Below, piece after piece: positions 4,743 through 29,412 of a stretch of DNA of 37,542 bases. This DNA is from a virus, in IMG/VR virus record IMGVR_UViG_3300028045_000040, positions 1 to 37,542 of that record; one strand, given 5' to 3'. Each line of letters opens with the position of its first letter. Position 1 is the first letter of the stretch. The notes below the pieces were generated by a model, which did not search any database, was not told the DNA's origin, and saw only the letters and a list, made by a program, of their open reading frames with translations. The translations under genes were made by a program, and so were the position numbers.

Positions 4743-7700
4743 ATGCCTATCAAAAAACTTTCACTACTTAAAAAAGACACTCAAGGAAAGAAAGCCTTGA
4801 TTGCTTCGACAAAGGGCTATAACACTGGAAATGGAAATGGCTATCAAAATAAAAGCGGACTAGTTAGTAGCCTTACAGCTAATATGCCTATAACAAAATG
4901 CTCACAAATGGCTGGGTCAGGAGCATCCGTTATCTGGACTCAACCTATGTTCTTTAGCCCACTTCACACTCCTCAGAACTGGCAAATTGCATCGAGGCGA
5001 CGAGAAGTTTATCAATGGAGCTATATATGTGGATATGATGGAACTCCTTGCGATATAACAACTTACGATGGCTCTTTGAAGTCGATCAAATTTTTCTTTG
5101 ATGAGGCGAATGACCTTACTTCTTCGTGTATTAGGTCTATAGACAGCAAAGACGCCACAATCGTTCAAGACGGACATGGAAATATGTCTCTTCCTGATAA
5201 AGCCTCAAAACATAAAGTAAAGAAAAAAGCAAACAAGATCAAAGCCCTTGGAATAGCAGAACCGCTTTCTCTAACAAATGATCATGATTGTATTGTTATA
5301 AAAAGAGAAGACATTCAATGTCATAAAAGCAAATGGAATAAGAAAAAATGCGTAGTTGATCATGTTGCTCCTACATGCGAAAGACATAAATGTAAAGAAT
5401 GTATAGATAAAGAATATAAAATATCAAAAATTAAAGCTAGAAACATAGAAAAAGGCGATCATATCCTTGTTCCATTCAATACAGATATAATTCCTAGTAT
5501 CATTGATGATGAAGATAAAGCTAGATATGCAGGTCATTTAGCTTCAGATGGATGGGTCTGTAGTGGGAACGATAACAAAAAAAGCTATGCTGGCATCTGC
5601 ATGAATACAGATGAAGTAGAATATGTAAAGCCGTGTATTGACAATGTATATAAATCTTTAGGAAGTAGTCAAACTTATATTGGGACACTTAAACATAGTG
5701 ATAAAGTAGTTTCTTCTTGCAATGCAACAAAATCTGTTTATAATTTTGCTTCTCAACTGGTAAAAGGCAAAGGAGCAGAGAAAAAATTTACAGATCAAGT
5801 AACACTATTAAATCCTAAACTTCAGCTTGATGTTATAGGGGCATACATACAATCTGACGGATCTTACAATAAGCAGAACTCATGCGTTGAAATTACGACT
5901 TATTCTCGTCATCTAGGTAATCAATTAATGCTCATGTGTTTTAGATGCGGAATTCTTGCTAGATTAAATAAACAACCTATTAGTAGATCTAAAAAAACCT
6001 TTAAAACAAAAAACACGCATAGATATATCTTAAATATTTCTTCTTCTGATTTAGAAAAACTTGCAGAATATGTCCCTGGAAAATTAGACGAATTTTGGAC
6101 AAGAGGAAAAAAAGATAACAGAAGATTTTTCTGGAAAAATTTTGTTGTTTCTCCTGTTGTATCTAATGAATCATTTGATTATGAAGGAGACGTATATGAT
6201 ATAAGGGTTCCTGGTTCATATACAGTAACTGCCAATGGTATCGCAGTTCATCAATGTCGATTTTATTATGACAACGAATGCAAAGTAGCTGCTGCTGTAG
6301 ATTTCTATGCAACATTCCCAGTCAACGGTTTTAAACTTGAATGCAAAAACAAAAAAGTTCTAAAATATTATGAACGTCAAACTAAAAGATTAAGAATCAA
6401 TCATTGGGCAAAACTTATTAGTCATGAGAATTTTCTTATTGGTGACGTTTTTCCTTGGGTAGAAGTAGCTTGTAACCATTGTGGTGGAAGTGGAACGCTC
6501 CCGAATGGAGAATCATGTAATCACTCTGGCGGTTCCATAAGTAGAATTGTTATACTCAATCCTGATTGGATTGAAGTACAAATGAACCCACTTGTATCTG
6601 AGCCAGTAATAGCTTTAGTTCCAGATGAAGAACTAAGAATGATTGTCCAAAGAAAAAGACCAAAACAGATTTATGACAATCTTCCTCAGAGACTGATTGA
6701 GTTAGTCTCTACTGGTGCTCCTATACCCCTCTCTAATAGGTCTGTAAGCCATATTAAGCATAATCCTAGTCCTTATGGGGCATATGGTAATCCATTGCTT
6801 AGAAGGGCATTTACTGTCCTTGCTTACAAGACTAAGTTAATGACAGCTAACTGGATTGTAGCTGAAAGACTTATTCTTCCTGTTAGAGTTGTGAAAATAG
6901 GAGACAAAGACAGACCGGCTGTTCCACAAGACATATCAGACGTTTCAAACCAACTCTCTGCTGTTGCAAATGATCCTAATTTAACGCTAGTCACTCACCA
7001 TGCATTTGACTATAATTGGCACGGTGCGTCTGGAAAGATACATAACATTAGCAATGAAATAGAACAAATTGGGAAAGAACTTCTTGATGGATTTATGCTG
7101 AATCAAGCGTTACTCAATGGAGAAGCAGGTAGTTATTCGTCAGCACAGGTTGGCGTCGAAGTCATGATAAGAAGGCTTGAAAGTTGGCGTGCTTCTTTAG
7201 CGGAATGGATTGAACAGCATATTTTCCTTCCTATTGCCATGATGCAAGGATTTATTGATGAGGAAGAAAGTAAAGAGATTGGCGAGACTGTTTATCTTCA
7301 TCCAACTATAAAATGGAATGATCTACAACTTAGAGATACTTCTAGTCAAAAACAAATGCTTGTACAGCTTCATGATAAACAGCTAATATCATCTCAAACG
7401 TTGTTAGAAGAGTTTGATTTAGATTATGACCAAGAAATTGAGAGGATAAGGGAAGAAGCTATTATGGTCGGTCCAGGTGGTCAGATGGGTGGTGGAGGAA
7501 TGGGTGGAATGCCTGGAATGCCTGGTGGCGATATGGGTGGAGGAGGAATGCCGGGCGGTATGGGAGGAATGCCTGGAGGCGATATGGGAGAAATGGGCGG
7601 TATGCCAGGTGGTATGCCAGGAGGAATGCCTGGTGGTATGCCAGGCGGGATGGGAGGAGCACCTGGTATGGGAGCGGCAGCAGGCGGTATGGAACCTCCA

Positions 7701-8240
7701 TTAAAAGTTGAAAAAAGAGGCAAAGGCAACGGTCCTCAAGAACAAGCTGAACCTGAAGTTCAACCTATGCTCAAGCTTACAAAGCTTGAAGGAAGAATGT
7801 ACAAAATGCTTATGGACCTAGGATTACCGCCGCAGTATAGAATGTTTGCGCAATACAAAGTAGCAGTCGCTGGAGAGCAACAACCGTATGTTATAGATTT
7901 TGCTATTCCGAATATAGGCATGGGCATCGAAGCGGACGGTTCTATCTGGCACGATCAAGCAGATTCAAAAGCTCATGACGTTCAAAGAGATCAAAAACTA
8001 TCTAATATTGGTTGGAGAATTTTAAGATTCAATGAAGAGGCTATAGAAGAACGCATTGATGCTGTGCGAGATGTTGTGATAAAAAATATTAAAGACGCAG
8101 ATAAACAAAGGAAAAATGCAAAAGATGGTGAAATAATTAAAATAGCTAATGAAATCTCAGAAGGCGACCCTGCTAAACTTATATACAAAAAGGTTGAGCT
8201 AGATGACAATCTGGGATATATGTATTTAATTGGGACATGA
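4743..8240 (+). CDS. Portal protein with intein and C-terminal DUF559/Vsr-like nuclease
   Basis: 1165 residues as encoded, about 756 after splicing; the start follows TTGGAGGACTT. The portal occupies residues 1-95 and 505 to about 905. Typical elements are YYDNECKVAAAVDFYATFP, a CNHCGGSG zinc-type loop, DVFPWVEV, NPLLRRAFTVLAYKT, and a helix-rich crown ending IERIREEAI. The portal forms the dodecameric vertex ring through which DNA is packaged. A Gly/Met/Pro linker (7465-7700, about 80 residues) then leads to residues about 1015-1115. These match the DUF559/Vsr-like PD-(D/E)XK pattern: VIDF (Asp1052), GIEADG (Glu1063), WH, QRDQKL and GWRILRFNEE. The intein covers residues 96-504. The stop overlaps the next start (ATGA). 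The portal call rests on context and motifs; the nuclease pattern is clear, its activity unproven. Confidence 0.88.
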   Translation: MPIKKLSLLKKDTQGKKALIASTKGYNTGNGNGYQNKSGLVSSLTANMPITKCSQMAGSGASVIWTQPMFFSPLHTPQNWQIASRRREVYQWSYICGYDGTPCDITTYDGSLKSIKFFFDEANDLTSSCIRSIDSKDATIVQDGHGNMSLPDKASKHKVKKKANKIKALGIAEPLSLTNDHDCIVIKREDIQCHKSKWNKKKCVVDHVAPTCERHKCKECIDKEYKISKIKARNIEKGDHILVPFNTDIIPSIIDDEDKARYAGHLASDGWVCSGNDNKKSYAGICMNTDEVEYVKPCIDNVYKSLGSSQTYIGTLKHSDKVVSSCNATKSVYNFASQLVKGKGAEKKFTDQVTLLNPKLQLDVIGAYIQSDGSYNKQNSCVEITTYSRHLGNQLMLMCFRCGILARLNKQPISRSKKTFKTKNTHRYILNISSSDLEKLAEYVPGKLDEFWTRGKKDNRRFFWKNFVVSPVVSNESFDYEGDVYDIRVPGSYTVTANGIAVHQCRFYYDNECKVAAAVDFYATFPVNGFKLECKNKKVLKYYERQTKRLRINHWAKLISHENFLIGDVFPWVEVACNHCGGSGTLPNGESCNHSGGSISRIVILNPDWIEVQMNPLVSEPVIALVPDEELRMIVQRKRPKQIYDNLPQRLIELVSTGAPIPLSNRSVSHIKHNPSPYGAYGNPLLRRAFTVLAYKTKLMTANWIVAERLILPVRVVKIGDKDRPAVPQDISDVSNQLSAVANDPNLTLVTHHAFDYNWHGASGKIHNISNEIEQIGKELLDGFMLNQALLNGEAGSYSSAQVGVEVMIRRLESWRASLAEWIEQHIFLPIAMMQGFIDEEESKEIGETVYLHPTIKWNDLQLRDTSSQKQMLVQLHDKQLISSQTLLEEFDLDYDQEIERIREEAIMVGPGGQMGGGGMGGMPGMPGGDMGGGGMPGGMGGMPGGDMGEMGGMPGGMPGGMPGGMPGGMGGAPGMGAAAGGMEPPLKVEKRGKGNGPQEQAEPEVQPMLKLTKLEGRMYKMLMDLGLPPQYRMFAQYKVAVAGEQQPYVIDFAIPNIGMGIEADGSIWHDQADSKAHDVQRDQKLSNIGWRILRFNEEAIEERIDAVRDVVIKNIKDADKQRKNAKDGEIIKIANEISEGDPAKLIYKKVELDDNLGYMYLIGT
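5028..6254 (+). mobile_element. LAGLIDADG intein in the portal protein (ends in Gln)
   Basis: 409 residues, portal residues 96-504. The N-terminal splicing block is CGYDGTP...ITTYDG; block B is LTNDHDCIV with the TxxH pattern. The C-terminal block is VYDIRVPGSYTVTANGIAVHQ followed by Cys. The last residue is therefore Gln, not Asn, after the penultimate His, with Cys at +1. Two homing-endonuclease motifs are present, YAGHLASDGW and VIGAYIQSDGS. A Cys-rich insertion (CERHKCKEC) follows block B and might bind zinc. The N-terminal boundary is uncertain: Cys96 fits intein spacing best, whereas Ser93 would restore WCRFYY in the spliced portal. Splicing is inferred. Confidence 0.88.
7465..7700 (+). 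repeat. Gly/Met/Pro-rich linker repeat in the portal gene
   Basis: Repeats of GGMPGG, GGDMGG and PGGMPGG in the protein, encoded by degenerate ATGCC(T/A)GG(T/A/C)GG units. It separates the portal crown from the nuclease-like domain and should act as a flexible tether. Confidence 0.85.
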
Positions 8241-8668
8241 TAACATTCAATCTTTTAAAATTTGCTAGTAGGAAAAGAATCCGTGACAGGGGCATCCGTT
8301 GGGATGAAACCTATCACGAAAGATCTGCTCCTCTTAAAAAACGTTTTGAAAAAGAGATTGGACCCGGTTCGTATCACAGATGGGAAGGACACGACTATAC
8401 GACTAATTCAGATTATTTTGTTGTAGTCGGACCAGCAATCCAAAAAAGTGGTCAAAAATCCTTTTTTGCAGGAGTTAAAAAACTTCCTCCAAGATATAAA
8501 AGAGAAAAGGTGAAAGCTTATGCTCCTAGTGGAAAATACTTTACTAATATTTTATCTGCTTTGAGTCATGCAGTAGAGATGTGGGGAATATCATTTCCCA
8601 AGGGACAACCAAAATACGATGAAAGTAGTTTAGCCCCTGTTGAAATACCTAGACACATTAAAGGATAA
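8237..8668 (+). CDS. Unrecognised protein coupled to the portal
   Basis: 143 residues; the ATG overlaps the portal stop as ATGA, so translation is probably coupled. The protein is basic and seems to be a single compact domain: RIRDRGIRWDETYHERSAPL near the start, then SDYFVVVGPAIQKSGQ, and a C-terminal part with APSGKYFTNILSALSHAVEMWG followed by FPKGQP. No membrane segment or metal motif is visible. I cannot name the family; tight coupling suggests a portal or assembly partner. Confidence 0.78.
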   Translation: MITFNLLKFASRKRIRDRGIRWDETYHERSAPLKKRFEKEIGPGSYHRWEGHDYTTNSDYFVVVGPAIQKSGQKSFFAGVKKLPPRYKREKVKAYAPSGKYFTNILSALSHAVEMWGISFPKGQPKYDESSLAPVEIPRHIKG

Positions 8669-9343: not shown

Positions 9344-12300
9344 ATGGCTTTTAACAAAATAGCAACAAACAATTTAACTATCCAAAAAGTAGATCCTCTA
9401 AACAGACCTGATTGGACAGAATATAATATGAAGCGAATTAAAACTGCTTCTATTATGAAAAACAGAGAATCTGATTTAGGCGGTTTTGATATTGGTTCTG
9501 CTATTCACAAACATCCAGAACATTTATTTGTAAAAATATTTGCTATCAAAAAAGATGAAGTAAACGACAATGGAGATGCTTTCTCTGAGAGCGAGTTAAT
9601 TAAAGCAACACCTTCATTCGTTGGCGTTCCTGTCTTTTGTAATCACCAAAATGATGATATAGAAAAGGCAAGAGGCATTATAGCTCATGCTTGGTATGAC
9701 AAAGAAATGGGTGGGATATACACTATCGCAAGAGTAGATAGGGTTGCGTGGCCTGATTTGGCTAGGGGAATAGAACAAGAAATTGTCACAGGTTCCAGCA
9801 TGGGAGCAACTCGTGGAAACGATCTCGTACTAATGGGAGACGGATCAAAGAAGAAAGTTAAAGAGCTTAAAAAGGGAGATACAGTACGAACCCATACAGG
9901 CAAAAAAGAACAAATTGAAGTTGTCTGTAAAACTCAAGAACATGATGAATTATATCTTGTCAAATGGAATGGAAATACAAAAGGATTAGCTTTAAGTCAC
10001 GAGCATCCATTGTTAGCAATTAAATCAGAAGATATATACTATACTAATAAATCTAAAAAACTATACAGAAAAACTCCAAGTGAAATTAGAGATGAAATAA
10101 AACCATCATTTATTGAATCTAGATCAATTAAGCCCGGAGACTACGTACTTGAATATGTTCCGCAAAAAGAAATAGTAGTAGATGAGATTAATGACGATAT
10201 TGCCTTTTTGCTTGGATTATATGCTGCTGAAGGATATATAAACGAAAAAAGTGTAGGGTTTTGTCTTGGAATGCAAGATAAAGAAAGTCAACATTATATT
10301 AAATTGTTGGATGTTCTTAAAACTAATTTTCCTGATTCAAAAGTAAGAATAGATGAGAAGCTAGAAAGAAATGGTTTATATGTTGTTACATGGAATGAAA
10401 AATTAGCTGAATTGTGCGACAAATATGTAGGCAGAGGGAGTCATGATAAAAAGCTTCATAACGACGTATTACTTCTTCCCAAAAATCAACAAAAACTAAT
10501 ACTTGGAGCATATCTAGACGGAGATGGATGTTCTATCAAAAAAAGAACTACGAAAAATGGACAATCTTCAGGACAGGGAGCAATGCAAGCATCTTCTGCA
10601 TCAGTTGATCTTCTTTCTGGAATGCGTATTATATGTATGAGACTTGGCGTTTCTGCCTGTTTGTCTAAACACGAAAGAACAGCTTCTAGTTCTACGGTTA
10701 TGGATCAAAGTACACAATATGTTGAATATATGTTATATATGACAAATGGGATTAGCACTGTTCTTCATAAATACAGTTCTAAAGCACATAACAATTTAAA
10801 AGCTATTAGAACTAAATCAGATTCATTTATATATGACTGCTACATGGCTCATAAAATTAAAAATGTAGAGATTATATCCAATGAAGAAACAACATATTAT
10901 GTACAAGTAGGTAAATTAGATGATAAAAATAGCGATCACAGCTATATAATTAATGACATAGCTACGCACAACTGCTCAGTAACCTCTTCTATGTGCAGCA
11001 TTTGCCACAATTGTGCATCTGTAGCTGACGAATATTGCGATTGCGTGAAACATAGAAAAAACAAAAAGTTTAGCGGAAAACAAAAATGTTTATACCATGA
11101 CAGTCCTATCAAAATAGAAGGACACGAAGATACATGTCCTATATGCGGATCTACATCAAAAGATAGTAAAACTAACGAACATAAAGAAGCTCAGATATAT
11201 GAGCATAACTTTGGTATCAAATTTATCGAAGATTCATTCGTAGTAAATCCTGCTTGTCATGATTGTTTAGTTCAAGAGATATTTAATAAAACAGGTATGG
11301 AACAGAAAGTTGCATCTCTCAAAAATAGAATTGTTAAAATGGCTGAAAGTCAAGCTTGCGATTCAGGGGCTTGTTCTATAGACGGTCAAATGAAAAAAGT
11401 TGCTGGGAAACAAGAGTTAGATGAGCTTGTTACTGCAATGGATATTGTTGAGAAAGTAGCTAAATCGTTAATGGCTCAAAAAGAATATGTTTCTATGGAA
11501 TATGTTAGTGATTTAGTAAAAACTTTAGCTGAGATGCAATCTATCTCTGATGAACTTACAGAAATGGGTTATGGACAGATCCCTTCTCCACAACTAACTG
11601 GAGCAGAATCTATAGAGCTTCCAAAAGAGGGAGCAGAGCCATTTGGTGCTGAACAACAGCCACTTCCTGGGGCTGAGCCTCTCCAACCAACTGCTCCAAG
11701 ACAACCTTCTGGAACGCAACAATCTGACATGAGTGGGCTTGGAACTGTAACCGTTCCAAAAATATCAAGAAAAAAAGAGGACTTTTTAAAACATTCTCAA
11801 ATATTAATAGAGAAGTTTAATAAACTAAGTGAAAATCTTACAAATATATCTCAAGATATGTTATCAAATAAGGAGTTAAATATGGCCGACACCAAGGACA
11901 GTCAAAGTAAAGATATAGAAAAGACTGCTGGAGCAACAGATGTTATTACCGAGAAGCAACTACCAGACAAGGATACAGGGGCTGGGCAGCAATGGCAAGA
12001 AAACCTTGACGTTACCACCGAGAAACAACTCAATGATCCTAATAAACATAAAGATGCTGGCTTGACAGGTAAATTGCCTAGCCCACAAGAACGTACTGGA
12101 TCTTATGAAGTTATTACCGAAAAGCAATTCAATAGCGTTACTGCTGATTATGTTGCTCGTTGGGGAGACTATCCAGAAGTTATCACTGAAAAGCAATGGA
12201 CCGAAATGAGTCGTTTAGTTGGTTCTGAACTTAGTAAGGATCAAGATGATATTATAACAGAAAAACAAATGGGCGACTTCCTATCTCATCACAGATATAC

Positions 12301-15300
12301 AGATTGGAACGTTGTCACTGAAAAACAGCTTCCTCAACAGGATGGTGATCTTGCTCGTTGGGCATATACGTTCGATCCAACAAAGGTTGTCAAATTAGCT
12401 ATGGACTCTGTTTCTGATACAATCGCTTTCTACAATAAGACTCCTGCTGAAGTAATGAAAGCATCAGCTTTTATCAATGATCCTAAAAATATCAATAAAG
12501 CAGCAATGCTTGTTCTTGTTAACGCTATGCCAAACAAGAAAGAAACTATTGCAGCAGAAAAAAGTAAATATAATTACTTCTCTAAACTTGCATCGTCAAG
12601 CGTAGAGACTCCAAATGCAGTTGACGCTTTAATTGCAAGCATGAGTAGCAACCTTAAAGATATTAGTGCCGATGACCTCATTGAAGGTTCTAAGCATGTC
12701 CTTTCTAGCGAAAAAGGTTTAAAGCAGGCTGAAGAATCTGCTAAAATTAAACTTGCTAATGGACCTTCAGTTGATGAAGTTGTATCCAAAACAGCACAGT
12801 TCGATTCAGCTATTAACGAACTTGGTAGAGAAGAAGATGGTCTTTACCAGATTAAAGCTTCTATCAGCGAGATCGGAGCAGATATAACAAATAAGAAAGC
12901 GTTTGTAGAAGCAACTCATAAGTTTGCAGACAAGCAGATTGATGACAGCGATCTTAAAACAGCTATTACAAATATAGATGTCGATGAAAAGGCTGGAATC
13001 GTAGTTGCAACCGTTAAAGATATTAATGCTTTGACTGAAGAAGAAAAAACATCTGTTGCTCAATTTAAAATTGATTCACCTAAAAAACCTAATCCTTTCC
13101 TTCCTGACAAAAAAGTTGAAGAAGAGGAAGTTGTTGATTCCTCTGATCCCGTTTTGGCAAGTAGACAAGCTAGAAGAAATAATTGGATAGAAGAAGATGA
13201 TACTGCGAATTTAGCAGACAGCACTATTAATCAACTTGAGTTAGATGAAACTGGCAAACCAAAACCACGTTCTCGAAGACTTGAAAGAGATTTTCCAGGG
13301 TTAGCTAGAGGCGTGAGAAATACTCAAGCCTCTAGACAAGCTAGAAGAAATACTTTGGTTAAAGAAGCTCAAATGATGGGTGGAGAAATGGGTGGGCAAG
13401 GTGGAGCAGCACAAGGACCAGGAGCAGGAGCTACGCTTCCTAATGCTGGCGGCGATCCAATGGATCAAGCTCCAATGGAAAGTTTCGAAAATTCTGACCT
13501 TGGAGACGATTTGGGTGGAACTGAAGATTTAATGCCTAAACCTCCTGGCTCTGTTTGCCCAGTTTGTACCAGTCAAGATGTCGATATCATCAAAGGTGCT
13601 GGTAAATGTAATAATTGTCAATCTGAGTTTGAATATAAAGTTTCTATCAATGTTACTAGATGGGCTGATGTCCTAGGTGACAGTCAAGATGATGGGATAG
13701 AAGAGGATAGCCCAATCGAAGGAGAAGGCTTTGAACTCCCAGAACCTGGTGCTATGGAAGAACCTGTAGCTGAAACTGCTGGAATGCCAGCAATGGCAAA
13801 CACAAACTTTGCTGCAATGGCTAAAATAACCAAAGAAGCAGCAACTAAGATTTCCGAAGCAGGCATTGAGCTAGGTTCAGTCAGTCCTTTCACTGGAACA
13901 ACTCAAACTGTCAAATTGGCTGATGGCGAAAGAAAATGCCTAGATACTGGTTTATCTTATAAAGTATCTTACGCAATTAATAAAAATAAACCAGAAGTAA
14001 TCTATGCTCAATGGGAATGGAACCCAACAGCATTAGACTTCGAATGTAACGATTGCTCAAGAAAGAAAGATATGTTCATTAAAGCTCTTGCATCAAGCGA
14101 TATCACAGAAGCTGGATTTGATGCTTTGAGTCCTAAAGAAAAGGGTAATGTCATTCTTGCTATGAAGAAATCTGGACTTACAAAAACAGCAAGTTCTGCT
14201 AAATCTGCAATAAGCATTTATAAACAGTCTCTTGGTCCTGTCAAAGATTTCCCAGAAGAAATTTGCAAAGAAAGAATTGCACGAAGATACGGTCTTGATG
14301 CTGTAGCTCTGAGCGGGCCTTACGAAGGCGAACTTCTTTGTGACGCAATCTGCAAATCTCTTAAGAAAGCAGAAGTTTATTCAAATTACCTCGCTATCAA
14401 AGTTGCTGACATTTGGTGCGATAAGAGCGGAACCGAAGAATGCATAGAAGATTATGTAAGAGAAGGTTTCCAATTGAAACAAGCTTCAACAATTTGTCAA
14501 ACAATGAAAGCTAAATACGCTCAGTTCGATGACATCGTTTCCGACGAGATCGGCGATATGGTTGAAGAAGACGAAGGTTTCAACGGTCCTGAAGATGAAT
14601 TTGACGGTGGCGGTGACTTTGATGGCGATTTCGATCCGTTTGAAGGCGAAGGCGAAGATGGCGGTGAAGCTACCGTTACTATCGAACTTCCAATAGAAGT
14701 CGCAGAACAAGTCGCAGAAGCAGTTGAAATTGCTACTGGAGGAGGCGATGAAATCGATGGAATCGATGATGGAATTGATGAAGGCGTTGAAGTTGACGTT
14801 GAAATCGAAGGACCAGAAGGAATTGATGGAGCAGACGATATCGTTGAAGACGCAACTGATGAGATCGTAGATGATGTAACTGATGGCGTTATCGGCGACG
14901 AGATCATTGACGAGATCGATGACGAAGAGGCTCTTGAAGGCGAAATTATCGAAGGCGAAGAAAAAGACATGTCTGCTGGCGGCGAAGTTTGTCCTCATTG
15001 CGGCGAAACAAAATCAATGGAACCTGGATGCTGCGGTGGCGAAACAAAACCTATGGAAATGGGTTCAGATAATGCTGAAGCACCTGTCGAAACCTCAGAT
15101 AATGTTGCTCCAGTCGAAGACGAATTAAAAAATTGTGAAAATAATAGAGGAACTGAAGAGCATATAGAGAATATACAAGAAAGACAGTTCAAAGAAGGTG
15201 ACCCACGAACTGTCGCAGACACAGACGAAGACATTGTAAGGGAATCGAATCAAATGAGTAAAGGACACATTAATAAGACAAACGAGATCAACATGGACCT

Positions 15301-16354
15301 TTCGGGCGTTCTTGCTGTTCTCAACAAATCAGCCGATAAAATTGGTCTTCAGAATGCTCAAGATACTGCAAAAGACTATTCTGGAAATTCAACGATTGGC
15401 GATGAGTCTTCATTTACTGCCGATAAACCTTCTGCACCAACTGGAACTGCAACAATGGGCGATGAATCGTCAGATTTGCAGAAACTAGATAATGCTTCCG
15501 CTCCTACGAAAGACGACAGGATTGGCGGCGAAAAAGATGATCCTACTTTAAAGCCTGAGCTTGATAATAAAGCAACTGGCGGCGAAGAGGGTGCAGGAAA
15601 TGCAAAAGCAGCATCTACAAAAGATAGAGTTCACGCTCTTGCCGACACGCTTGTAAAAAATGCTGATGAAAAGAAAGTCAAAAGAGAACAAGTTCAAGAC
15701 GACGAAGATGTAAAGCCTTACAGCGGAGACAGCTTCATCGGAAATGAAAAAGAATCTATTGGCGACATCCCTGAAGCAAAAACTACACCAGATGGAATTC
15801 CAGAAGACAATGATTTTATAGGTAACGAACAGGAATCTATTGGCGACAAGCCAGATCCTGTTAAAGATACACCAGATATTCCTACGAAAGATGATCGAAT
15901 TGGCGGCGAAAAAGATAATGAAAAAATCGCCCCAGAAAAAGAAGATCAAATGACGGGGAAAATTGATAGCGGAGCACTTGCGAGTAGCAAGGAAGATTCC
16001 AAAGTAACTAAAGAAGCATACGCATTAGCTGGTAGAATGCTGCAAAGCGGACTCATTGAAGTCGGCCAGCTTGCAACTAAGGTAGCAGAACTTTCTGCTT
16101 ATCAGCCAAGTCAATTGGCTGACCTTGAAAAAGGTATGTTTGTGAAAAAAGGACTCGACGCTTCGTCTGACGGATTAGAAGGGCCAGCCGTACTTATCTC
16201 TGAGACTAGTACAGAAAAACGAGCACAATCAGAACATGTCAATCCACAAGATGAATTGACAGGTAAACTGCAAGGCTTGTTCAGTCTAGATATAAGAAAC
16301 AAAGAGGCCGATAGTATTCCAGACACAGAACTCCGTCAAAAGTACGGAAGATAA
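9344..16354 (+). CDS. Head-maturation protease/scaffold polyprotein with intein
   Basis: 2336 residues, about 1947 after splicing; start after AAAAAAGGACATAAA. The N-terminal protease region has FVGVPVFCNHQ (His101) and EIVTGSSMG (Ser151/152); the 50-residue His-Ser spacing is like that of assemblin-fold prohead proteases. It continues after the intein as CSVTSSMCSICHNC. Next come a Cys-rich stretch (CPICG), a helical region, an internal start at 11882, six TEKQ repeats (11942-12331), and two copies of ASRQARRN. A zinc ribbon (CPVC...CNNC) near 13555-13620, a helical Cys-containing domain, a very acidic region (14521-14960), another zinc knuckle (CPHCGE) and repeats of TKDDRIGGEKD and IGNE(K/Q)ESIGD complete it. 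It is far longer than usual prohead proteases, suggesting protease, scaffold and core functions in one chain. Confidence 0.85.
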   Translation: MAFNKIATNNLTIQKVDPLNRPDWTEYNMKRIKTASIMKNRESDLGGFDIGSAIHKHPEHLFVKIFAIKKDEVNDNGDAFSESELIKATPSFVGVPVFCNHQNDDIEKARGIIAHAWYDKEMGGIYTIARVDRVAWPDLARGIEQEIVTGSSMGATRGNDLVLMGDGSKKKVKELKKGDTVRTHTGKKEQIEVVCKTQEHDELYLVKWNGNTKGLALSHEHPLLAIKSEDIYYTNKSKKLYRKTPSEIRDEIKPSFIESRSIKPGDYVLEYVPQKEIVVDEINDDIAFLLGLYAAEGYINEKSVGFCLGMQDKESQHYIKLLDVLKTNFPDSKVRIDEKLERNGLYVVTWNEKLAELCDKYVGRGSHDKKLHNDVLLLPKNQQKLILGAYLDGDGCSIKKRTTKNGQSSGQGAMQASSASVDLLSGMRIICMRLGVSACLSKHERTASSSTVMDQSTQYVEYMLYMTNGISTVLHKYSSKAHNNLKAIRTKSDSFIYDCYMAHKIKNVEIISNEETTYYVQVGKLDDKNSDHSYIINDIATHNCSVTSSMCSICHNCASVADEYCDCVKHRKNKKFSGKQKCLYHDSPIKIEGHEDTCPICGSTSKDSKTNEHKEAQIYEHNFGIKFIEDSFVVNPACHDCLVQEIFNKTGMEQKVASLKNRIVKMAESQACDSGACSIDGQMKKVAGKQELDELVTAMDIVEKVAKSLMAQKEYVSMEYVSDLVKTLAEMQSISDELTEMGYGQIPSPQLTGAESIELPKEGAEPFGAEQQPLPGAEPLQPTAPRQPSGTQQSDMSGLGTVTVPKISRKKEDFLKHSQILIEKFNKLSENLTNISQDMLSNKELNMADTKDSQSKDIEKTAGATDVITEKQLPDKDTGAGQQWQENLDVTTEKQLNDPNKHKDAGLTGKLPSPQERTGSYEVITEKQFNSVTADYVARWGDYPEVITEKQWTEMSRLVGSELSKDQDDIITEKQMGDFLSHHRYTDWNVVTEKQLPQQDGDLARWAYTFDPTKVVKLAMDSVSDTIAFYNKTPAEVMKASAFINDPKNINKAAMLVLVNAMPNKKETIAAEKSKYNYFSKLASSSVETPNAVDALIASMSSNLKDISADDLIEGSKHVLSSEKGLKQAEESAKIKLANGPSVDEVVSKTAQFDSAINELGREEDGLYQIKASISEIGADITNKKAFVEATHKFADKQIDDSDLKTAITNIDVDEKAGIVVATVKDINALTEEEKTSVAQFKIDSPKKPNPFLPDKKVEEEEVVDSSDPVLASRQARRNNWIEEDDTANLADSTINQLELDETGKPKPRSRRLERDFPGLARGVRNTQASRQARRNTLVKEAQMMGGEMGGQGGAAQGPGAGATLPNAGGDPMDQAPMESFENSDLGDDLGGTEDLMPKPPGSVCPVCTSQDVDIIKGAGKCNNCQSEFEYKVSINVTRWADVLGDSQDDGIEEDSPIEGEGFELPEPGAMEEPVAETAGMPAMANTNFAAMAKITKEAATKISEAGIELGSVSPFTGTTQTVKLADGERKCLDTGLSYKVSYAINKNKPEVIYAQWEWNPTALDFECNDCSRKKDMFIKALASSDITEAGFDALSPKEKGNVILAMKKSGLTKTASSAKSAISIYKQSLGPVKDFPEEICKERIARRYGLDAVALSGPYEGELLCDAICKSLKKAEVYSNYLAIKVADIWCDKSGTEECIEDYVREGFQLKQASTICQTMKAKYAQFDDIVSDEIGDMVEEDEGFNGPEDEFDGGGDFDGDFDPFEGEGEDGGEATVTIELPIEVAEQVAEAVEIATGGGDEIDGIDDGIDEGVEVDVEIEGPEGIDGADDIVEDATDEIVDDVTDGVIGDEIIDEIDDEEALEGEIIEGEEKDMSAGGEVCPHCGETKSMEPGCCGGETKPMEMGSDNAEAPVETSDNVAPVEDELKNCENNRGTEEHIENIQERQFKEGDPRTVADTDEDIVRESNQMSKGHINKTNEINMDLSGVLAVLNKSADKIGLQNAQDTAKDYSGNSTIGDESSFTADKPSAPTGTATMGDESSDLQKLDNASAPTKDDRIGGEKDDPTLKPELDNKATGGEEGAGNAKAASTKDRVHALADTLVKNADEKKVKREQVQDDEDVKPYSGDSFIGNEKESIGDIPEAKTTPDGIPEDNDFIGNEQESIGDKPDPVKDTPDIPTKDDRIGGEKDNEKIAPEKEDQMTGKIDSGALASSKEDSKVTKEAYALAGRMLQSGLIEVGQLATKVAELSAYQPSQLADLEKGMFVKKGLDASSDGLEGPAVLISETSTEKRAQSEHVNPQDELTGKLQGLFSLDIRNKEADSIPDTELRQKYGR
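9806..10972 (+). mobile_element. LAGLIDADG intein in the maturation protease (Ala at position 1)
   Basis: 389 residues, protein residues 155-543. Block A is ATRGNDLVLMGDGSKKKVKEL with canonical spacing but Ala where Cys or Ser is usual; block B is LALSHEHPLLA; the end is DHSYIINDIATHN followed by Cys. Ala1 with Cys+1 is the signature of class 2 (KlbA-type) inteins, in which Cys+1 attacks directly. Endonuclease motifs are FLLGLYAAEGYI and LILGAYLDGDGCS. Removing it joins TGSSMG to CSVTSSMC, so the insertion lies two or three residues after the putative catalytic Ser. Confidence 0.9.
11870..11884 (+). promoter_or_regulatory. Internal ribosome site and ATG inside the protease/scaffold gene
   Basis: AAGGAG, six bases, then ATG GCC in frame at 11882. 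This matches the sites of the decoration and capsid genes (AAGGAG with similar spacing before ATGGC). It would yield a separate protein from residue 847 onward. Confidence 0.6.
11882..16354 (+). CDS. Nested scaffold product of the protease gene
   Basis: An in-frame 1490-residue product that would begin MADTKDSQSKDIEK and lack the protease and intein. It starts just ahead of the TEKQ repeats, at a domain boundary. Lambda C/Nu3 is the established precedent for a scaffold translated from an internal start of the protease gene. The evidence here is the ribosome site and its position; no separate promoter is needed. It remains an inference. Confidence 0.55.
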   Translation: MADTKDSQSKDIEKTAGATDVITEKQLPDKDTGAGQQWQENLDVTTEKQLNDPNKHKDAGLTGKLPSPQERTGSYEVITEKQFNSVTADYVARWGDYPEVITEKQWTEMSRLVGSELSKDQDDIITEKQMGDFLSHHRYTDWNVVTEKQLPQQDGDLARWAYTFDPTKVVKLAMDSVSDTIAFYNKTPAEVMKASAFINDPKNINKAAMLVLVNAMPNKKETIAAEKSKYNYFSKLASSSVETPNAVDALIASMSSNLKDISADDLIEGSKHVLSSEKGLKQAEESAKIKLANGPSVDEVVSKTAQFDSAINELGREEDGLYQIKASISEIGADITNKKAFVEATHKFADKQIDDSDLKTAITNIDVDEKAGIVVATVKDINALTEEEKTSVAQFKIDSPKKPNPFLPDKKVEEEEVVDSSDPVLASRQARRNNWIEEDDTANLADSTINQLELDETGKPKPRSRRLERDFPGLARGVRNTQASRQARRNTLVKEAQMMGGEMGGQGGAAQGPGAGATLPNAGGDPMDQAPMESFENSDLGDDLGGTEDLMPKPPGSVCPVCTSQDVDIIKGAGKCNNCQSEFEYKVSINVTRWADVLGDSQDDGIEEDSPIEGEGFELPEPGAMEEPVAETAGMPAMANTNFAAMAKITKEAATKISEAGIELGSVSPFTGTTQTVKLADGERKCLDTGLSYKVSYAINKNKPEVIYAQWEWNPTALDFECNDCSRKKDMFIKALASSDITEAGFDALSPKEKGNVILAMKKSGLTKTASSAKSAISIYKQSLGPVKDFPEEICKERIARRYGLDAVALSGPYEGELLCDAICKSLKKAEVYSNYLAIKVADIWCDKSGTEECIEDYVREGFQLKQASTICQTMKAKYAQFDDIVSDEIGDMVEEDEGFNGPEDEFDGGGDFDGDFDPFEGEGEDGGEATVTIELPIEVAEQVAEAVEIATGGGDEIDGIDDGIDEGVEVDVEIEGPEGIDGADDIVEDATDEIVDDVTDGVIGDEIIDEIDDEEALEGEIIEGEEKDMSAGGEVCPHCGETKSMEPGCCGGETKPMEMGSDNAEAPVETSDNVAPVEDELKNCENNRGTEEHIENIQERQFKEGDPRTVADTDEDIVRESNQMSKGHINKTNEINMDLSGVLAVLNKSADKIGLQNAQDTAKDYSGNSTIGDESSFTADKPSAPTGTATMGDESSDLQKLDNASAPTKDDRIGGEKDDPTLKPELDNKATGGEEGAGNAKAASTKDRVHALADTLVKNADEKKVKREQVQDDEDVKPYSGDSFIGNEKESIGDIPEAKTTPDGIPEDNDFIGNEQESIGDKPDPVKDTPDIPTKDDRIGGEKDNEKIAPEKEDQMTGKIDSGALASSKEDSKVTKEAYALAGRMLQSGLIEVGQLATKVAELSAYQPSQLADLEKGMFVKKGLDASSDGLEGPAVLISETSTEKRAQSEHVNPQDELTGKLQGLFSLDIRNKEADSIPDTELRQKYGR
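11942..12331 (+). repeat. Six TEKQ repeats in the scaffold region
   Basis: Hydrophobic pair plus TEKQ plus hydrophobic residue occurs at 11942 (VITEKQL), 12011 (VTTEKQL), 12110 (VITEKQF), 12179 (VITEKQW), 12251 (IITEKQM) and 12311 (VVTEKQL). Spacing is 69, 99, 69, 72 and 60 bases. Codons vary between copies (ACC/ACT/ACA, GAG/GAA), so the peptide, not the DNA, is conserved. Confidence 0.9.
14521..14960 (+). repeat. Highly acidic low-complexity segment of the scaffold
   Basis: A nearly continuous Asp/Glu/Gly/Ile region (for example DGGGDFDGDFDPFEGEGEDGG and EIDGIDDGIDEGVEVDVEIE in part), encoded by repeats of GAT, GAA and GGC. It is typical of scaffold or core proteins that fill the prohead. 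Long antisense open frames here are by-products of this composition. Confidence 0.85.
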
Positions 16355-17946: not shown

Positions 17947-18102
17947 ATATACATTTTTATTAATCCGATTTTTATAACATACGAAGAGGTTTATAATAAG
18001 TAGTAGTAAAAATATTTTAAATTTTCTTTAAAGAAATCCTTCTGATTTGCCGATATGTATGTGAGAGATAAGATATATCTTAAAACAGAAAGGAATAAGA
18101 AT

Positions 18103-19101
18103 ATGAGAGAACAACCCCACTATACAAATTTATTGACAGAAGAGTTTTTCACAGAACATTATATACGAGGAAGAATGTCATATCCAAAGATAAGAGAAAT
18201 GCTGTTAAAACAAGGATATAATGTTCACGTAGGTACATTATATAATTATGCTAAGAAATTAGGTATAGGTAGAAACAGGTCAGAAGCAAAAAGAAATAGA
18301 GAAGAAAATCCACTTGATTGGTCTATAAGTTATATGACAGAAAGCATCATTGAAGCCATTGATGGGTTTTTATTGGGAGATGGATCAATTCATAAACCTC
18401 AAACTACAGGAACTCTAGACATTACAAGACTAGCTTGTGGTGTACAATATGAAGAGTTCTGCAATTATATGATGAAATGGTTCTCATCGTATAATTCATA
18501 TTGTAAAGAATATAGGAGTTCAAGCATGTCCTCTGGTTTTGTTTGGATGGGAAGAACTAAATTTCATCCTGATTTATATGCACAGCACAACCGCTGGTAT
18601 CATAAAAGCGAGAAAACAGGAAAATGGCTAAAACAACCACCAGATGATGTAAGAATAACTCCTAAATCTGTAATGTTATGGTACTTAGGAGACGGATCTT
18701 GTGTGCAAAAGAATAATACTGTAGTTATTCGTTTATCAACTGATGGATTCGATAAAGAAAGAGTTGAGTTTTTAGCTGATAAAATGAAAGAAAAGGGTAT
18801 AGATTGTTATAGAAATGGAGACAATCGTATACAGATTAAAACAACTGCTGTCCCTGCCTTCTTTAAGTTCATTGGAAAAAAGTCTCCCGTTAAATGTTAT
18901 GATTATAAATTTGATTTACCTGAATGGAGATTTGAAGCAAAAAGAATGAAAGCTGTTGCTGACGAGTTAGGCATTGACTATCAACAATTAGCTCATTTAG
19001 TTAAGATCGGTAAGATCCCTTGTTATAGGATTAGTGAGAAGGGTAGACCTAGATTTCTACCTGAGCATATAGAAGTTGTAAAGAAAGCATTTAGCTTATA
19101 A
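18103..19101 (+). CDS. Free-standing LAGLIDADG homing endonuclease
   Basis: 332 residues from the ATG behind AAAGGAATAAGAAT; an upstream in-frame ATG (18055) has no ribosome site. The N-terminal 70 residues hold a helix-turn-helix-like segment (SYPKIREMLLKQGYNVHVGTL). Two LAGLIDADG motifs follow, IDGFLLGDGSI (about residues 86-96) and LWYLGDGSC (about 192-200), each with the metal-binding Asp. The C-terminus has an excisionase-like helix-turn-helix (AVADELGIDYQQLAHLVKIG) that could help DNA recognition. It sits after the capsid terminator, ten bases ahead of a second endonuclease. It presumably makes a site-specific break that drives its own spread, probably at a nearby capsid-region site. 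Confidence 0.85.
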   Translation: MREQPHYTNLLTEEFFTEHYIRGRMSYPKIREMLLKQGYNVHVGTLYNYAKKLGIGRNRSEAKRNREENPLDWSISYMTESIIEAIDGFLLGDGSIHKPQTTGTLDITRLACGVQYEEFCNYMMKWFSSYNSYCKEYRSSSMSSGFVWMGRTKFHPDLYAQHNRWYHKSEKTGKWLKQPPDDVRITPKSVMLWYLGDGSCVQKNNTVVIRLSTDGFDKERVEFLADKMKEKGIDCYRNGDNRIQIKTTAVPAFFKFIGKKSPVKCYDYKFDLPEWRFEAKRMKAVADELGIDYQQLAHLVKIGKIPCYRISEKGRPRFLPEHIEVVKKAFSL

Positions 19102-19111
19102 GGAAACAAGA

Positions 19112-20386
19112 ATGTCAAGAAAAATATTTAATTACGAATCTGTCATATTAGTTAATGAGACTATAAAAGAATATGGCTACAATCCAGATAAATACGGAAA
19201 AGCTTCTGCCAAATTCATTATATGCTCATGCCGTTACTGCGGAGAACCTCATAAGATACGAAAAGGGTTTTATAACAAGTCTGGGTCTGCATGTCATAAG
19301 CAATGTAAAATAGAAGAGATGAAGCAGCAGAAGTCTCCTTTTTTAGATATTAAGGTTAGGGAGAAGGCTAAGAAGACTAATTTTGAGAGATATGGATTTG
19401 AGCAGGCAAGTAGTAATAAGGATATAGGGAAGAAGATATCTCTTTCTAAGTTGACTGAGGACTATAAAAACATTGATCTTACGGTACAAGATGAGAAATC
19501 TTTAAAGAAAAACCTTAGAAAGATAAATAAGCAGAGAAAGTTAATTGTAGAGACAATAAGGGAATTTTATTTTGGCGAAATCTTAGTTAAAGCTGGAAAA
19601 ATCATATCTCCTTATAAGTTAGACATATATTTACCTGAGAATAAGTTTGCTATTGAGTTTAATGGCAGTTATTGGCATTCAGAGGCTGTTTTAGATGTTA
19701 AAGATGCTAGAAGGAAGCATATTAACAAGACTAAGATGTGTAGAGAGAGAGGAATTCGTTTATTTCATATCTTTGAGTATCAGTGGGAGACTCGTTCTAA
19801 GCAGCTTTTAAACTTTATAAGGACAATACTGAATAAAAACGCTGTTAAGGTCGCAGGGAGGAAGTGTGAGGTCTCCAGCGACCCTTGTAAGGAGTTCTTC
19901 AATGCTAATCATATACAGGGATATGGTCAAGGAACTAAAAAGTTTTTTAATCTTGTTTATAAGGGAAAGATAGTTGCATCTATGACAGCATCTAGACATC
20001 ATAGACAGGGATCTGATAGTAAATCTATCGTTTTGAATAGGTTATGTTTTGATAGTGGGGTTAATGTACAGGGTGGATCTAGTAAGTTGTTTAAATATTT
20101 TAAGGAGTGGGCTAAGAATGAGGGATATGACAAGATTATATCTTGGTCTGACAATTGTTGGACTGAGGGGAATATTTATGGGGTTTTGGGATTTGATTTG
20201 GTAAGTGAGTCTGCTCCTGATTATTTTTATTGGGATATTAAAACTAAGAAATACATATCTAAGCAGAGTCAGAAGAAGTCTAATAGCGGATGTCCCAAAG
20301 AGATAACTGAGAGGGAGTGGAGTAAAGATAAAGGACTTTTCAGAATTTATGACTGTGGGAAGAAATTATTTGAATATAATTTATAA
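19112..20386 (+). CDS. Vsr-like PD-(D/E)XK homing endonuclease
   Basis: 424 residues; start after AAGGAAACAAGA. The N-terminal part has a Cys-rich element (CRYCGEPH and later CHKQC) that may bind zinc. The nuclease core, residues about 145-235, reads LDIYLPENKFAIEFNGSYWH, RRKHINKTKMCRERGIRLFHIFEYQWE. The Asp-x-n-Glu, Trp-His and hydrophobic strand pattern is that of the Vsr-like phage homing endonucleases (I-Bth0305I type). The C-terminal 190 residues resemble an acyltransferase-like fold often attached to such enzymes (NLVYKGKIVASMTASRHH, GSSKLFKYFKEWAKNEG, GNIYGVLGFDLVSESAPDYF); its role is unknown. It likely forms a homing pair with the preceding gene. Confidence 0.8.
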   Translation: MSRKIFNYESVILVNETIKEYGYNPDKYGKASAKFIICSCRYCGEPHKIRKGFYNKSGSACHKQCKIEEMKQQKSPFLDIKVREKAKKTNFERYGFEQASSNKDIGKKISLSKLTEDYKNIDLTVQDEKSLKKNLRKINKQRKLIVETIREFYFGEILVKAGKIISPYKLDIYLPENKFAIEFNGSYWHSEAVLDVKDARRKHINKTKMCRERGIRLFHIFEYQWETRSKQLLNFIRTILNKNAVKVAGRKCEVSSDPCKEFFNANHIQGYGQGTKKFFNLVYKGKIVASMTASRHHRQGSDSKSIVLNRLCFDSGVNVQGGSSKLFKYFKEWAKNEGYDKIISWSDNCWTEGNIYGVLGFDLVSESAPDYFYWDIKTKKYISKQSQKKSNSGCPKEITEREWSKDKGLFRIYDCGKKLFEYNL

Positions 20387-27087: not shown

Positions 27088-27570
27088 TTAGAATCCTTCG
27101 TCTCGACGTTGATCGAATTCAAAATCTCCTCTACGATCTTCATCTGAGTATGTATCCATTCCTGCCTCGTTTATTTCTTTTTGGTACTCTCGTTCTACTA
27201 TTCCAAAATATTGTGGGTTTAATTCTCCAACGAGTTGACCTCCAACCAAGAAAGTGACTTTTTTGATAGTTCTTTCGTCTGCACTTTCAGGGGGATAGGA
27301 GGTTTCAACTGGACCACCTGGTCTGCCTGGGTCATTATACCCAGAGCTTGCGAAATCAATTATCATTTCTGCATCGCCTCCTCTTATCGTATCAAGGTCT
27401 AGGACGCTAAGTATCGCCGCAGACATTTCTCCTGAGATATCTTTGTCGTAAGACATATCATAGATTTCTTCCATCTCTCCGACATCAAGACTGACTATGA
27501 GTTCACTAGGAGAATCTGTCCATCTACTCTGTTGAGCTATCGTGTATTTTGCTGTTTTTATAATTTTCAT
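27088..27570 (-). CDS. Unrecognised MKIIKTA-leader protein
   Basis: 160 residues. It opens MKIIKTAKYTIAQQ, almost identical to neighbouring leaders, and then diverges. The body is acidic: LIVSLDVGEMEEIYDMSYDK, a Gly/Pro segment GYNDPGRPGGPVETSYPP, and VTFLVGGQLVGELNPQYF. The tail is charged and possibly disordered (DRRGDFEFDQRRDEGF). Function not recognised. The shared leader suggests common localisation or processing with five other genes. Confidence 0.75.
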   Translation of the reverse strand: MKIIKTAKYTIAQQSRWTDSPSELIVSLDVGEMEEIYDMSYDKDISGEMSAAILSVLDLDTIRGGDAEMIIDFASSGYNDPGRPGGPVETSYPPESADERTIKKVTFLVGGQLVGELNPQYFGIVEREYQKEINEAGMDTYSDEDRRGDFEFDQRRDEGF

Positions 27571-27591
27571 TTATTTGCCTTTACCTTTTAT

Positions 27592-27987
27592 TTAGTTAAA
27601 ACTCTCACGCCCTGGTTCATCGTAAACTCCGTAATCACCAAAATCTTTATAATCACCATCAACGTCTGATGGATCTTGAAGATAACTATAAAGAACTGAA
27701 TCTCCTAAAAGTTCTTTTTTGACAGCTTCGTACTCTTTAGTGCCAGGAAGTATAGGAAATTCAGCATTTTCATCTTCTGCGTTGAAGAGTCTAGTTAATT
27801 CTATACCTTCTATTTCCGTTCCTCCTCTAAACCCTACTTCTGGCTCTGATTCTTGATAATAAGTATCTGAAATGTACCCCTCGACATAATATTTTTGATC
27901 TCCTAATTGGAATTCCTCAAACTCGAAGTTTCCATAACTTTGATTCGCCGTTTTTTTAATATATTTTGCTGTTTTAATAATTTTCAT
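27592..27987 (-). CDS. Unrecognised MKIIKTA-leader protein
   Basis: 131 residues starting MKIIKTAKYIKKTANQ. The remainder is acidic with many aromatic residues: YGNFEFEEFQLGDQKYYVEG, GTKEYEAVKKELLGDSVLY, ending DYKDFGDYGVYDEPGRESFN. No motif or membrane segment is seen. It is the third of a run of five minus-strand genes whose first 10-12 residues are conserved while the rest is unrelated. Function unknown. Confidence 0.75.
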   Translation of the reverse strand: MKIIKTAKYIKKTANQSYGNFEFEEFQLGDQKYYVEGYISDTYYQESEPEVGFRGGTEIEGIELTRLFNAEDENAEFPILPGTKEYEAVKKELLGDSVLYSYLQDPSDVDGDYKDFGDYGVYDEPGRESFN

Positions 27988-27989
27988 TT

Positions 27990-28796
27990 TTATCCTCTAA
28001 AAAGCCATTTATCTTGTGGTGTGTTAGGGTCGTTTTGATCTCTCGTATCCCATTTGAGATCTCGCAATATCCTATTGAGTGATTTTTCGTATGCTTGAAG
28101 CACTTCATTGATGCTCCATATACTTCGTTCTTCCAGTTCGTCATTTCTCAAAATTTGAAGAGATTGATCTCCTGCGAGAGTTTGTGAAATGTAATCGCTT
28201 CCATAGTAGTCCTGCCCTTCTGTTGCTCCTCCTTGCTGTGACAGATTTATAATTTCTGCTTCTAGATCGCCTATACTTGTAACGTGTGCTTTCATCTGTT
28301 TTAATTCTTTTGCAAAATCTGTTTCTATCTCTTGAACAGTTTTGTAAATCTGAGAGTAGTAATAATAACCGTCTTCTTGAGCAGTTTTAATATTTTTTTT
28401 ACTAGACGCAATCCCCATCTGTCTATCTTTTCGTAATCCTTCATGATAGTCTTCGTTCTCCCCCTCATATCTGTCTTGTTTTATTTGGTACAGCGACATC
28501 GATCCTCTTTTTTCTGCTATTTGTTTTATTCGTTGTACAAGACTATCTATTTTGTTTTCCATCTCTGTAGGATCTCTAGGGACGATCCTATCTGTTTGAT
28601 GTCCACCATTTTCCAGCCATTCCTCTAAAGCAGAATCTACCCCTACATATCCTCCGCTCGTGATTTCGTCTACCCAACTTAAGAGTGTATCCCCACGAAC
28701 TCCTGGTTCTGGCATATCTATAGATGCATCTTGAGCGTCAGTAAAAGACCAGTTTTGTGATTTTTTATTATATTTTGCTGTTTTAATAACTTTCAT
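27990..28796 (-). CDS. MKVIKTA-leader protein with internal second leader motif
   Basis: 268 residues. The N-terminus is MKVIKTAKYNKKSQ, and a second copy, SSKKNIKTAQEDG, lies at residues 131-143. It is followed by YYYYSQIYKTVQEIETDFAKE and a helical C-terminal domain. This internal motif plus the QIYKT element is also found in the next gene upstream, so the C-terminal halves appear to be related modules. The N-terminal part, with SWVDEITSGGYVGVDSALEEW, is distinct. Function unknown; the structure suggests fusion of two leader-bearing units. Confidence 0.72.
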   Translation of the reverse strand: MKVIKTAKYNKKSQNWSFTDAQDASIDMPEPGVRGDTLLSWVDEITSGGYVGVDSALEEWLENGGHQTDRIVPRDPTEMENKIDSLVQRIKQIAEKRGSMSLYQIKQDRYEGENEDYHEGLRKDRQMGIASSKKNIKTAQEDGYYYYSQIYKTVQEIETDFAKELKQMKAHVTSIGDLEAEIINLSQQGGATEGQDYYGSDYISQTLAGDQSLQILRNDELEERSIWSINEVLQAYEKSLNRILRDLKWDTRDQNDPNTPQDKWLFRG

Positions 28797-28800
28797 TTTA

Positions 28801-29412
28801 CTATCCCATATTAACGGTTATGTCGTAACGATCTAATGGTTGTTCTACGCTCCCTGCTCCAGCAGCAACTAAAACTCCATACATTGTGTTTGGTCTGCCT
28901 TTATTGTTTGTAAAATTAATTTCGAATTTCCAAGTCTTTCTTTCTGAAGGCAGAGTTTTGTCGTATTGTCCACTTCCATAATAAGATTCAGTCATATTCC
29001 AATCTAAGCCTAACTCATCAAACGCTTTCCAAACCTGGTTTACTCCCTGCCAAGATTCATCACTATAGAATTGTTGAGTAATTGGATGTATTGTTTTGTA
29101 TATCTGCGTTTTTAATCTTTGTTTTGATATTCCAGCTTCTTGTGCATATTTTTCTGTTTTAATAGATTTTGAACTTCCAAACATATCGTGTGCTCCACCT
29201 GGTCTTTCATTCTCATATGCTGCTTGTTCCATTCCCTCTTCTTCTGCACAACCTTTGCACATGTTGGGATCAAAAGATTGTAAATCATCTATGTAATGTA
29301 CTTTTTTACAGTAATCACATTGTGCCGCATATCCTTCATAAATAGCTTTTTCTGGATTTTCTACAACTTCTGGCATTTTCTTAATAAATTGAGCCGTTCT
29401 AATAATTTTCAT
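28801..29412 (-). CDS. MKIIRTA-leader protein with zinc ribbon and internal leader motif
   Basis: 203 residues; AGGAATTTAATC before the ATG. After MKIIRTAQFIKKMP comes a zinc ribbon (CDYC at 32-35, CKGC at 52-55). A second leader-like motif, SSKSIKTEKYAQEAG, sits at about residues 80-94. A domain with QIYKTIHPITQQFYSDESW and an aromatic beta C-terminus (TWKFEINFTNNKGRPNTMYG) follows. It is the first gene of the minus-strand block, reading away from the divergent region. Function not recognised. Confidence 0.75.
   Translation of the reverse strand: MKIIRTAQFIKKMPEVVENPEKAIYEGYAAQCDYCKKVHYIDDLQSFDPNMCKGCAEEEGMEQAAYENERPGGAHDMFGSSKSIKTEKYAQEAGISKQRLKTQIYKTIHPITQQFYSDESWQGVNQVWKAFDELGLDWNMTESYYGSGQYDKTLPSERKTWKFEINFTNNKGRPNTMYGVLVAAGAGSVEQPLDRYDITVNMG

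Follow-up and report, generated by a model that had tools for sequence, protein, structure and literature searches.

We found that, in a lineage of uncultured viruses, the portal protein carries a nuclease domain as a fixed part of its own polypeptide. The DNA analysed is a stretch of 37,542 nucleotides, positions 1 to 37,542 of the IMG/VR virus record IMGVR_UViG_3300028045_000040 (hereafter the window), in which a single open reading frame (ORF) of 1165 amino acids (aa) at 4743-8240 on the plus strand comprises a portal, an intein, a tether and a nuclease. The fusion of portal and nuclease in the lineage is firm, as is the assignment of the two parts to their families (portal, Vsr-like nuclease). 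Both families are known; of their fixed and selected fusion we found no description in the open-licence literature searched, in which the one paper naming both portal proteins and DUF559 is a general review of thermophile phages. An earlier inspection of the letters alone (the sequence-only reading) had proposed a portal-nuclease at 6955-8240. The fusion was confirmed, whereas these coordinates turned out to cover only the C-terminal third of the gene, and the portal is interrupted by an intein (aa ~93-504) that the sequence-only reading left unmentioned.

The portal gene and its nuclease domain

The gene is made up of the following parts:

4743..5018, plus strand: portal N-extein, aa 1-92, ending ...RRREVYQW (tblastn of aa 1-96 against intein-free relatives)
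5019..6254, plus strand: intein of the LAGLIDADG type, aa ~93-504, ending ...VHQ before Cys505 (PF14528, PF14890)
6255..7472, plus strand: portal C-extein, aa 505-910, body to the last crown-like helices (phrog_16240, phrog_2833, Foldseek)
7473..7772, plus strand: tether rich in Gly, Met and Pro, aa 911-1010 (predicted local distance difference test score, pLDDT, below 50 at model residues 405-505)
7773..8090, plus strand: Vsr-like PD-(D/E)XK nuclease core, aa 1011-1116, DUF559/MTES_1575 (profiles, fold, conservation)
7896..7952, plus strand: predicted active site, D1052 ... E1063-x-D1065-G ... H1070 (conservation in 108 domains)
7929..7934, plus strand: intein insertion site of seven relatives, between aa 1063/1064, empty in the window (E/C-L-H-P...H-N/C-D-G junctions; the slash marks the junction)
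8091..8240, plus strand: C-terminal tail, aa 1117-1165, and stop, under weaker constraint (ratio of nonsynonymous to synonymous substitution rates, dN/dS, 0.10-0.41)

The portal was identified in Pfam and PHROG scans by phrog_16240 (E 6e-40) and Portal_Mu (30.6 bits, cut-off 23.9); within the C-extein, phrog_16240 spans aa 503-846 and phrog_2833 aa 503-906. A Foldseek search with a predicted model of portal plus nuclease, itself of modest quality (pLDDT 61), gave 89 PDB matches at E <= 0.001, headed by solved portals that include those of T4 (gp20), HK97 and G20c. In this model, the crown-like helices run to residue 405, equal to aa 909. They are followed by the tether that the sequence-only reading had placed between portal crown and nuclease: about 100 residues, predicted to be disordered, with a basic KVEKRGKG stretch and an acidic and Gln-containing stretch at its end. 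With the intein removed, the mature portal has about 750 aa. The gene lies in a head gene cluster; downstream of it are a maturation-protease/scaffold ORF and the gene for the major head protein.

The motifs from which the sequence-only reading had deduced a DUF559/Vsr-like nuclease lie where it put them (VIDF with D1052, GIEADG with E1063, WH with H1070, QRDQKL with R1082/D1083, and GWRILRF), and profile searches bore out the family. DUF559 matched aa 1047-1116 of the whole protein with 37.5 bits (cut-off 20.6, E 2.4e-9); the domain alone scored 41.7 bits for DUF559 (cut-off 20.6) and 39.1 bits for MTES_1575 (cut-off 38.2), and 37 of 37 aligned relatives matched both families at E <= 0.001. 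A profile of the domain, searched against the PDB, retrieved 3r3p (I-Bth0305I, E 2e-6) and 3hrl (NGO0050, a DUF559 protein), with Vsr as a weak match. The sequence-only reading had made its proposal depend on a restriction-endonuclease fold, and such a fold is what the AlphaFold model of the domain (pLDDT 83) indicates, with 3r3p (I-Bth0305I) as the best Foldseek match, followed by PvuRts1I, NGO0050 (3hrl) and Vsr (1vsr). The predicted core has the order alpha-beta-beta-beta-alpha-beta (helix 14-25, strands 35-40, 49-55 and 60-65, helix 73-88, strand 92-97). Across 108 distinct domains, there is no variation at D1052, E1063, G1066, H1070, D1079, R1082, D1083 or the G-W of GWR; D1065 is kept in 104 and replaced by E or C in the other four. 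The portal nuclease is likely to be enzymatically active. Besides portal, intein and nuclease, no DNA-binding module was detected by Pfam in the protein.

The intein in the portal of the window matches LAGLIDADG_3 (PF14528, E 3.8e-6) and Intein_splicing (PF14890, E 4.5e-4). Its N-terminal splice residue is uncertain (S93 or C103), and comparison of EVYQW-[intein]-CRFYYDNECK in the window with EVYQW-A-RFYYENEPK, in one piece, in intein-free relatives marks the insertion; the relatives L006, L010, L014 and L022 lack it. Seven distinct relatives (L030, L031, L037, L045, L057, L061 and L219) possess an intein at a second site, directly after the Glu of the E-x-D-G motif in the nuclease (...E/CLHPDTLV...THN/CDGxxWH). 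Inteins of mycobacteriophages typically adjoin motifs that are invariant or belong to an active site, among these a PD-(D/E)XK motif, and cluster C1 mycobacteriophage portals contain inteins as well (PMC5050341). An intein at E/xDG fits the expectation for a motif that is strictly conserved and catalytic. In these seven relatives, the nuclease active site forms only after protein splicing. Altogether, portal genes of the lineage have inteins at five sites (L061:3630-9785, L030, L031, L037, L057, L058), located after aa ~92, at C-extein residues ~18, ~251-258 and ~294, and at E1063 in the nuclease; the portal gene of L061 alone contains at least four.

Distribution of the fusion and selection on it

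A scan of viral contigs yielded 63 loci, of which 59 reach the portal end. The nuclease lay within the portal ORF in 57 of these; the two exceptions were L048, which is cut by the contig end, and L063, a frameshifted assembly. Widening the set by searches from the domain, the portal alignment and a divergent fused portal gave 126 distinct fused portals from uncultured viruses, all in frame. The in-clade exceptions overall were two contigs cut at their end, L063 (frameshift) and L308 (in-frame TGA in the tether); in both L063 and L308, the nuclease is the next ORF after the portal. In L308 (5380-5480), the TGA lies between tether and nuclease and may be a read error, a readthrough codon or a real split; this is the only case seen with both parts as separate ORFs in one frame. 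No clade member with sequence available lacked the nuclease domain. The tether of the 126 relatives measures 75-196 aa and averages 25% Gly, 9% Met and 11% Pro.

All non-fused portals fell outside this clade, namely those of phage G and its metagenomic relatives, of cluster C mycobacteriophages and of other cultured phages. A tree of 48 portals (36 fused, 12 outgroup) united the fused ones in a single clade with 100/100 support, corresponding to one gain and no loss. No portal-fused DUF559 was found by tblastn of the domain in 50,697 cultured phage records, none by profile in seven further cultured portals, and a single-protein search of host genome contigs returned no locus encoding a fused portal. 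Likewise, a survey of jumbo phages does not mention Vsr or DUF559 (PMC7824862).

Between pairs of relatives, dN/dS was 0.03-0.09 for the nuclease core and 0.03-0.07 for the portal body of the same pairs (NG86 estimates, some pairs with high dS). One further pair gave 0.02 for the portal body, the nuclease not being computable there. The intein reached 0.23 compared to 0.05 for the portal body, and the C-terminal tail 0.10-0.41. The identities of portal and nuclease were correlated (r = 0.79 over 231 pairs, which are not independent of each other). Substitution rates and residue conservation show purifying selection on the predicted active site.

The sequence-only reading had itself raised the concern that the two parts might be consistently separate in homologs and joined here by assembly. 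L063 and L308, with the parts in separate ORFs, fit such an assembly or annotation artefact, but the 126 distinct in-frame fusions, the conserved composition of the tether and the low dN/dS rule it out with near certainty.

Possible roles at the packaging vertex

The sequence-only reading had suggested that a tethered nuclease at the vertex could trim, nick or protect DNA during packaging or ejection, a role that stays hypothetical and that portal anatomy constrains. In the T4 portal, stem, wing and crown reside inside the capsid and the clip alone is outside (PMC9958956), and in P22 the crown extends into a C-terminal barrel within the virion (PMC5850374). A domain that follows the crown is therefore expected to be lumenal. 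The portal ring would then hold as many as twelve metal-dependent nucleases on tethers next to the DNA channel, in all likelihood on its lumenal side.

TerL, identified by phrog_2, lies some 9 kb upstream of the portal gene in those related records that were checked (PF17289 found none in 32 records), and the RNase H-like triad of its nuclease is intact in eight related viruses (HLDPA, YDQWNS, TDD..DALAG). The portal nuclease would therefore be an additional activity. A takeover of the headful or end cut from the terminase nuclease, as the location at the packaging vertex might suggest, was rejected as very improbable on account of the intact triad.

The best mechanism, which we propose tentatively and at somewhat short of an even chance, is packaging-coupled DNA processing at the portal. 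From their place in the ring, the tethered nucleases might nick or resolve irregular DNA (with branches, flaps or mismatches, or without the modification of the phage) on its arrival at the portal or its passage through it. Translocation would thereby be unblocked and defective DNA kept from being sealed in. Such an enzyme would be the built-in counterpart of T4 endonuclease VII, a separate protein that attaches to the T4 portal, gp20, and relieves packaging arrested by branched DNA (PMC3012670, PMC10893049). Besides this precedent, we count in favour of the mechanism the in-frame fusion with its single gain, the invariant catalytic residues, the low dN/dS of the nuclease core, the inteins at E/xDG, the fold and the intact TerL triad. 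Whether the up to twelve catalytic domains of the ring inspect and cut DNA at the vertex in place of RuvC-type resolvases, as the packaging resolvase or quality-control nuclease of the lineage, is more doubtful, and we regard this as rather unlikely. The distribution of RuvC also speaks for packaging-coupled processing: neither Pfam nor phrog_159 found it in any of the seven fused records with sizes of 296-548 kb, and records without the fusion did match it, strongly in phage G and more weakly in the 485 kb LR745208. Resolvase profile searches detected no Hjc, and the matches to RusA and endonuclease I were weak and below cut-off.

Several points weigh against packaging-coupled processing. The 147 kb record G040 possesses both RuvC and the fusion, and the record G034 an Endonuclease_7 domain, so that strict complementarity between RuvC and the fusion was rejected; the complementarity is suggestive at most, as contigs are perhaps incomplete and not all resolvase families were covered. 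Position matters as well: a lumenal place on the crown side weakens a simple debranching model, because branches stall at the motor outside the capsid, and a folded domain of 12 kDa could hardly traverse the DNA-filled channel. Compatible with this position would be inspection of the entering DNA, action on DNA where the channel opens into the head, or a release of the nuclease so that it is ejected. Finally, some relatives have the motif K-x-A-[SQ] in their tether or tail, perhaps as a cleavage site at which maturation would liberate the nuclease; we treat this as a lead only.

This motif also bears on the strongest competing explanation, a virion-carried nuclease that is lumenal, either freed from the portal by the prohead protease or tethered at the exit, and that acts on host or competitor DNA in the next cell. 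The predicted lumenal position would suit it, as would the protease gene downstream (phrog_18299) and the precedent of portal-binding MuF effectors (PMC5576092). K-x-A-[SQ] occurs 26 times in the proteins of the window compared to 7.0 +- 2.4 times in shuffled sequences, and in the 126 relatives it is enriched in the tether (28, shuffled 9.2) and in the tail (45, shuffled 4.1). However, kinship inflates these counts, the meaning of the motif is unproven, and it is missing from the tether in over half of the relatives. Moreover, toxin cassettes vary C-terminally, whereas this domain is constant across all 126 fused portals, and no immunity partner is evident. Taken together, we consider a virion-carried nuclease improbable, with a chance that is still substantial. 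The related idea of a MuF or polymorphic toxin was rejected given the absence of a MuF domain (Pfam) and a single kind of C-terminal domain across the 126 portals. The gene at 8237-8668, a 143-aa ORF whose start overlaps the portal stop, was likewise rejected as an immunity or partner gene; it has no PHROG match and is present in 51 of 52 assessable clade-1 loci, but in none of 60 loci of the second fused clade and not in phage G.

In the window, K-x-A-[SQ] recurs in the ORFs at 1074, 3059, 9344, 27990, 28801 and others, and several ORFs at 27088-29412 start with MK(I/V)I(K/R)TA(K/Q)(Y/F). Either the motif or these MK-type starts are possible maturation-protease sites or a capsid-targeting tag. 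The ORF at 9344-16354 (2336 aa) has a head-maturation-protease-like N-terminus (phrog_18299, weak), which is split by an intein at GSSMGA...HN/CSVTSS, and later a long acidic, scaffold-like region.

There is only a small chance that the domain is a domesticated homing endonuclease, an EDxHD/Vsr-like enzyme that was captured by the portal gene and kept mainly as a selfish or marker activity. I-Bth0305I, the closest solved structure, is a homing endonuclease, and the window holds inteins, a LAGLIDADG homing-endonuclease-like ORF at 18055-19101 and a homing-type ORF at 19112-20386. Homing genes come and go, however, whereas the fusion was gained once and not lost; no pair of close relatives was seen in which one had the domain and the other lacked it at that position. 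The correlated identities of portal and nuclease and the lack of a detectable DNA-binding module also speak against it, and the explanation suits the origin of the domain rather than its present role. As to the two ORFs themselves, the first directly follows the major head protein gene. The second matches phrog_3339 (named homing endonuclease, E 2e-74) and, weakly, MTES_1575 and a Mom-like acetyltransferase, and resembles the Mom-nuclease fusions of jumbo phages (PMC7824862).

A DNA-binding or structural relic that retains the fold for holding DNA or scaffold at the portal, without cutting, is improbable to a similar degree. The replacement of D1065 by E or C in four of 108 domains would fit this explanation, but D1052, E1063, H1070 and D1079 are invariant in all 108. 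Inactive members of nuclease families usually lose their catalytic residues, which we counted against a relic. The preference of inteins for active-site motifs also argues against it (PMC5050341).

Relation to known systems and meaning of the fusion

The closest known portals are gp14 of Bacillus phage G and those of cluster C mycobacteriophages, which share a homologous body (31% and 24% identity, respectively) and a Pro/Gly-rich C-terminal extension with the portal of the window. Both lack the nuclease, and no DUF559 occurs anywhere in the records of phage G or Myrna. On the nuclease side, I-Bth0305I and E. coli Vsr agree with the domain in their fold and in the order of their catalytic motifs (3r3p with a template modelling score of 0.75-0.77 by target length, Vsr weaker); however, neither belongs to a structural protein, whereas the domain of the window is a constant component of the portal. 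A Vsr-like catalytic fold is also shared by PvuRts1I and AbaSI (Foldseek E 0.0025 and 0.02), but these enzymes are modification-dependent and a modified-base reader domain was not detected by Pfam in the protein of the window.

T4 endonuclease VII at gp20 offers the parallel of a structure-specific nuclease that is positioned at the portal while DNA is packaged (PMC3012670, PMC10893049). It has an unrelated fold and is a separate protein that binds non-covalently, in contrast to the covalent fusion described here, and we claim no homology to Endonuclease_7. MuF toxins are portal-associated virion proteins as well, over half of the set with nuclease domains, but they are encoded after the portal and not fused to it, and their C-termini vary (PMC5576092); the portal of the window has no MuF domain. 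At the far end of the window (34024-37542), an ORF with LamG-like repeats, recognised by eye between long Ser-rich runs, runs off the contig.

Portals are usually regarded as passive conduits or as sensors of pressure, and DNA cleavage at the vertex is attributed to the terminase or to loosely associated factors, T4 endonuclease VII among them. With a nuclease that is covalent, fixed and under strong selection in the portal itself, the way in which a packaging motor deals with irregular or foreign DNA becomes testable with one recombinant protein. Our findings suggest that, in a large uncultured lineage of giant phages, the DNA gate is itself an enzyme.

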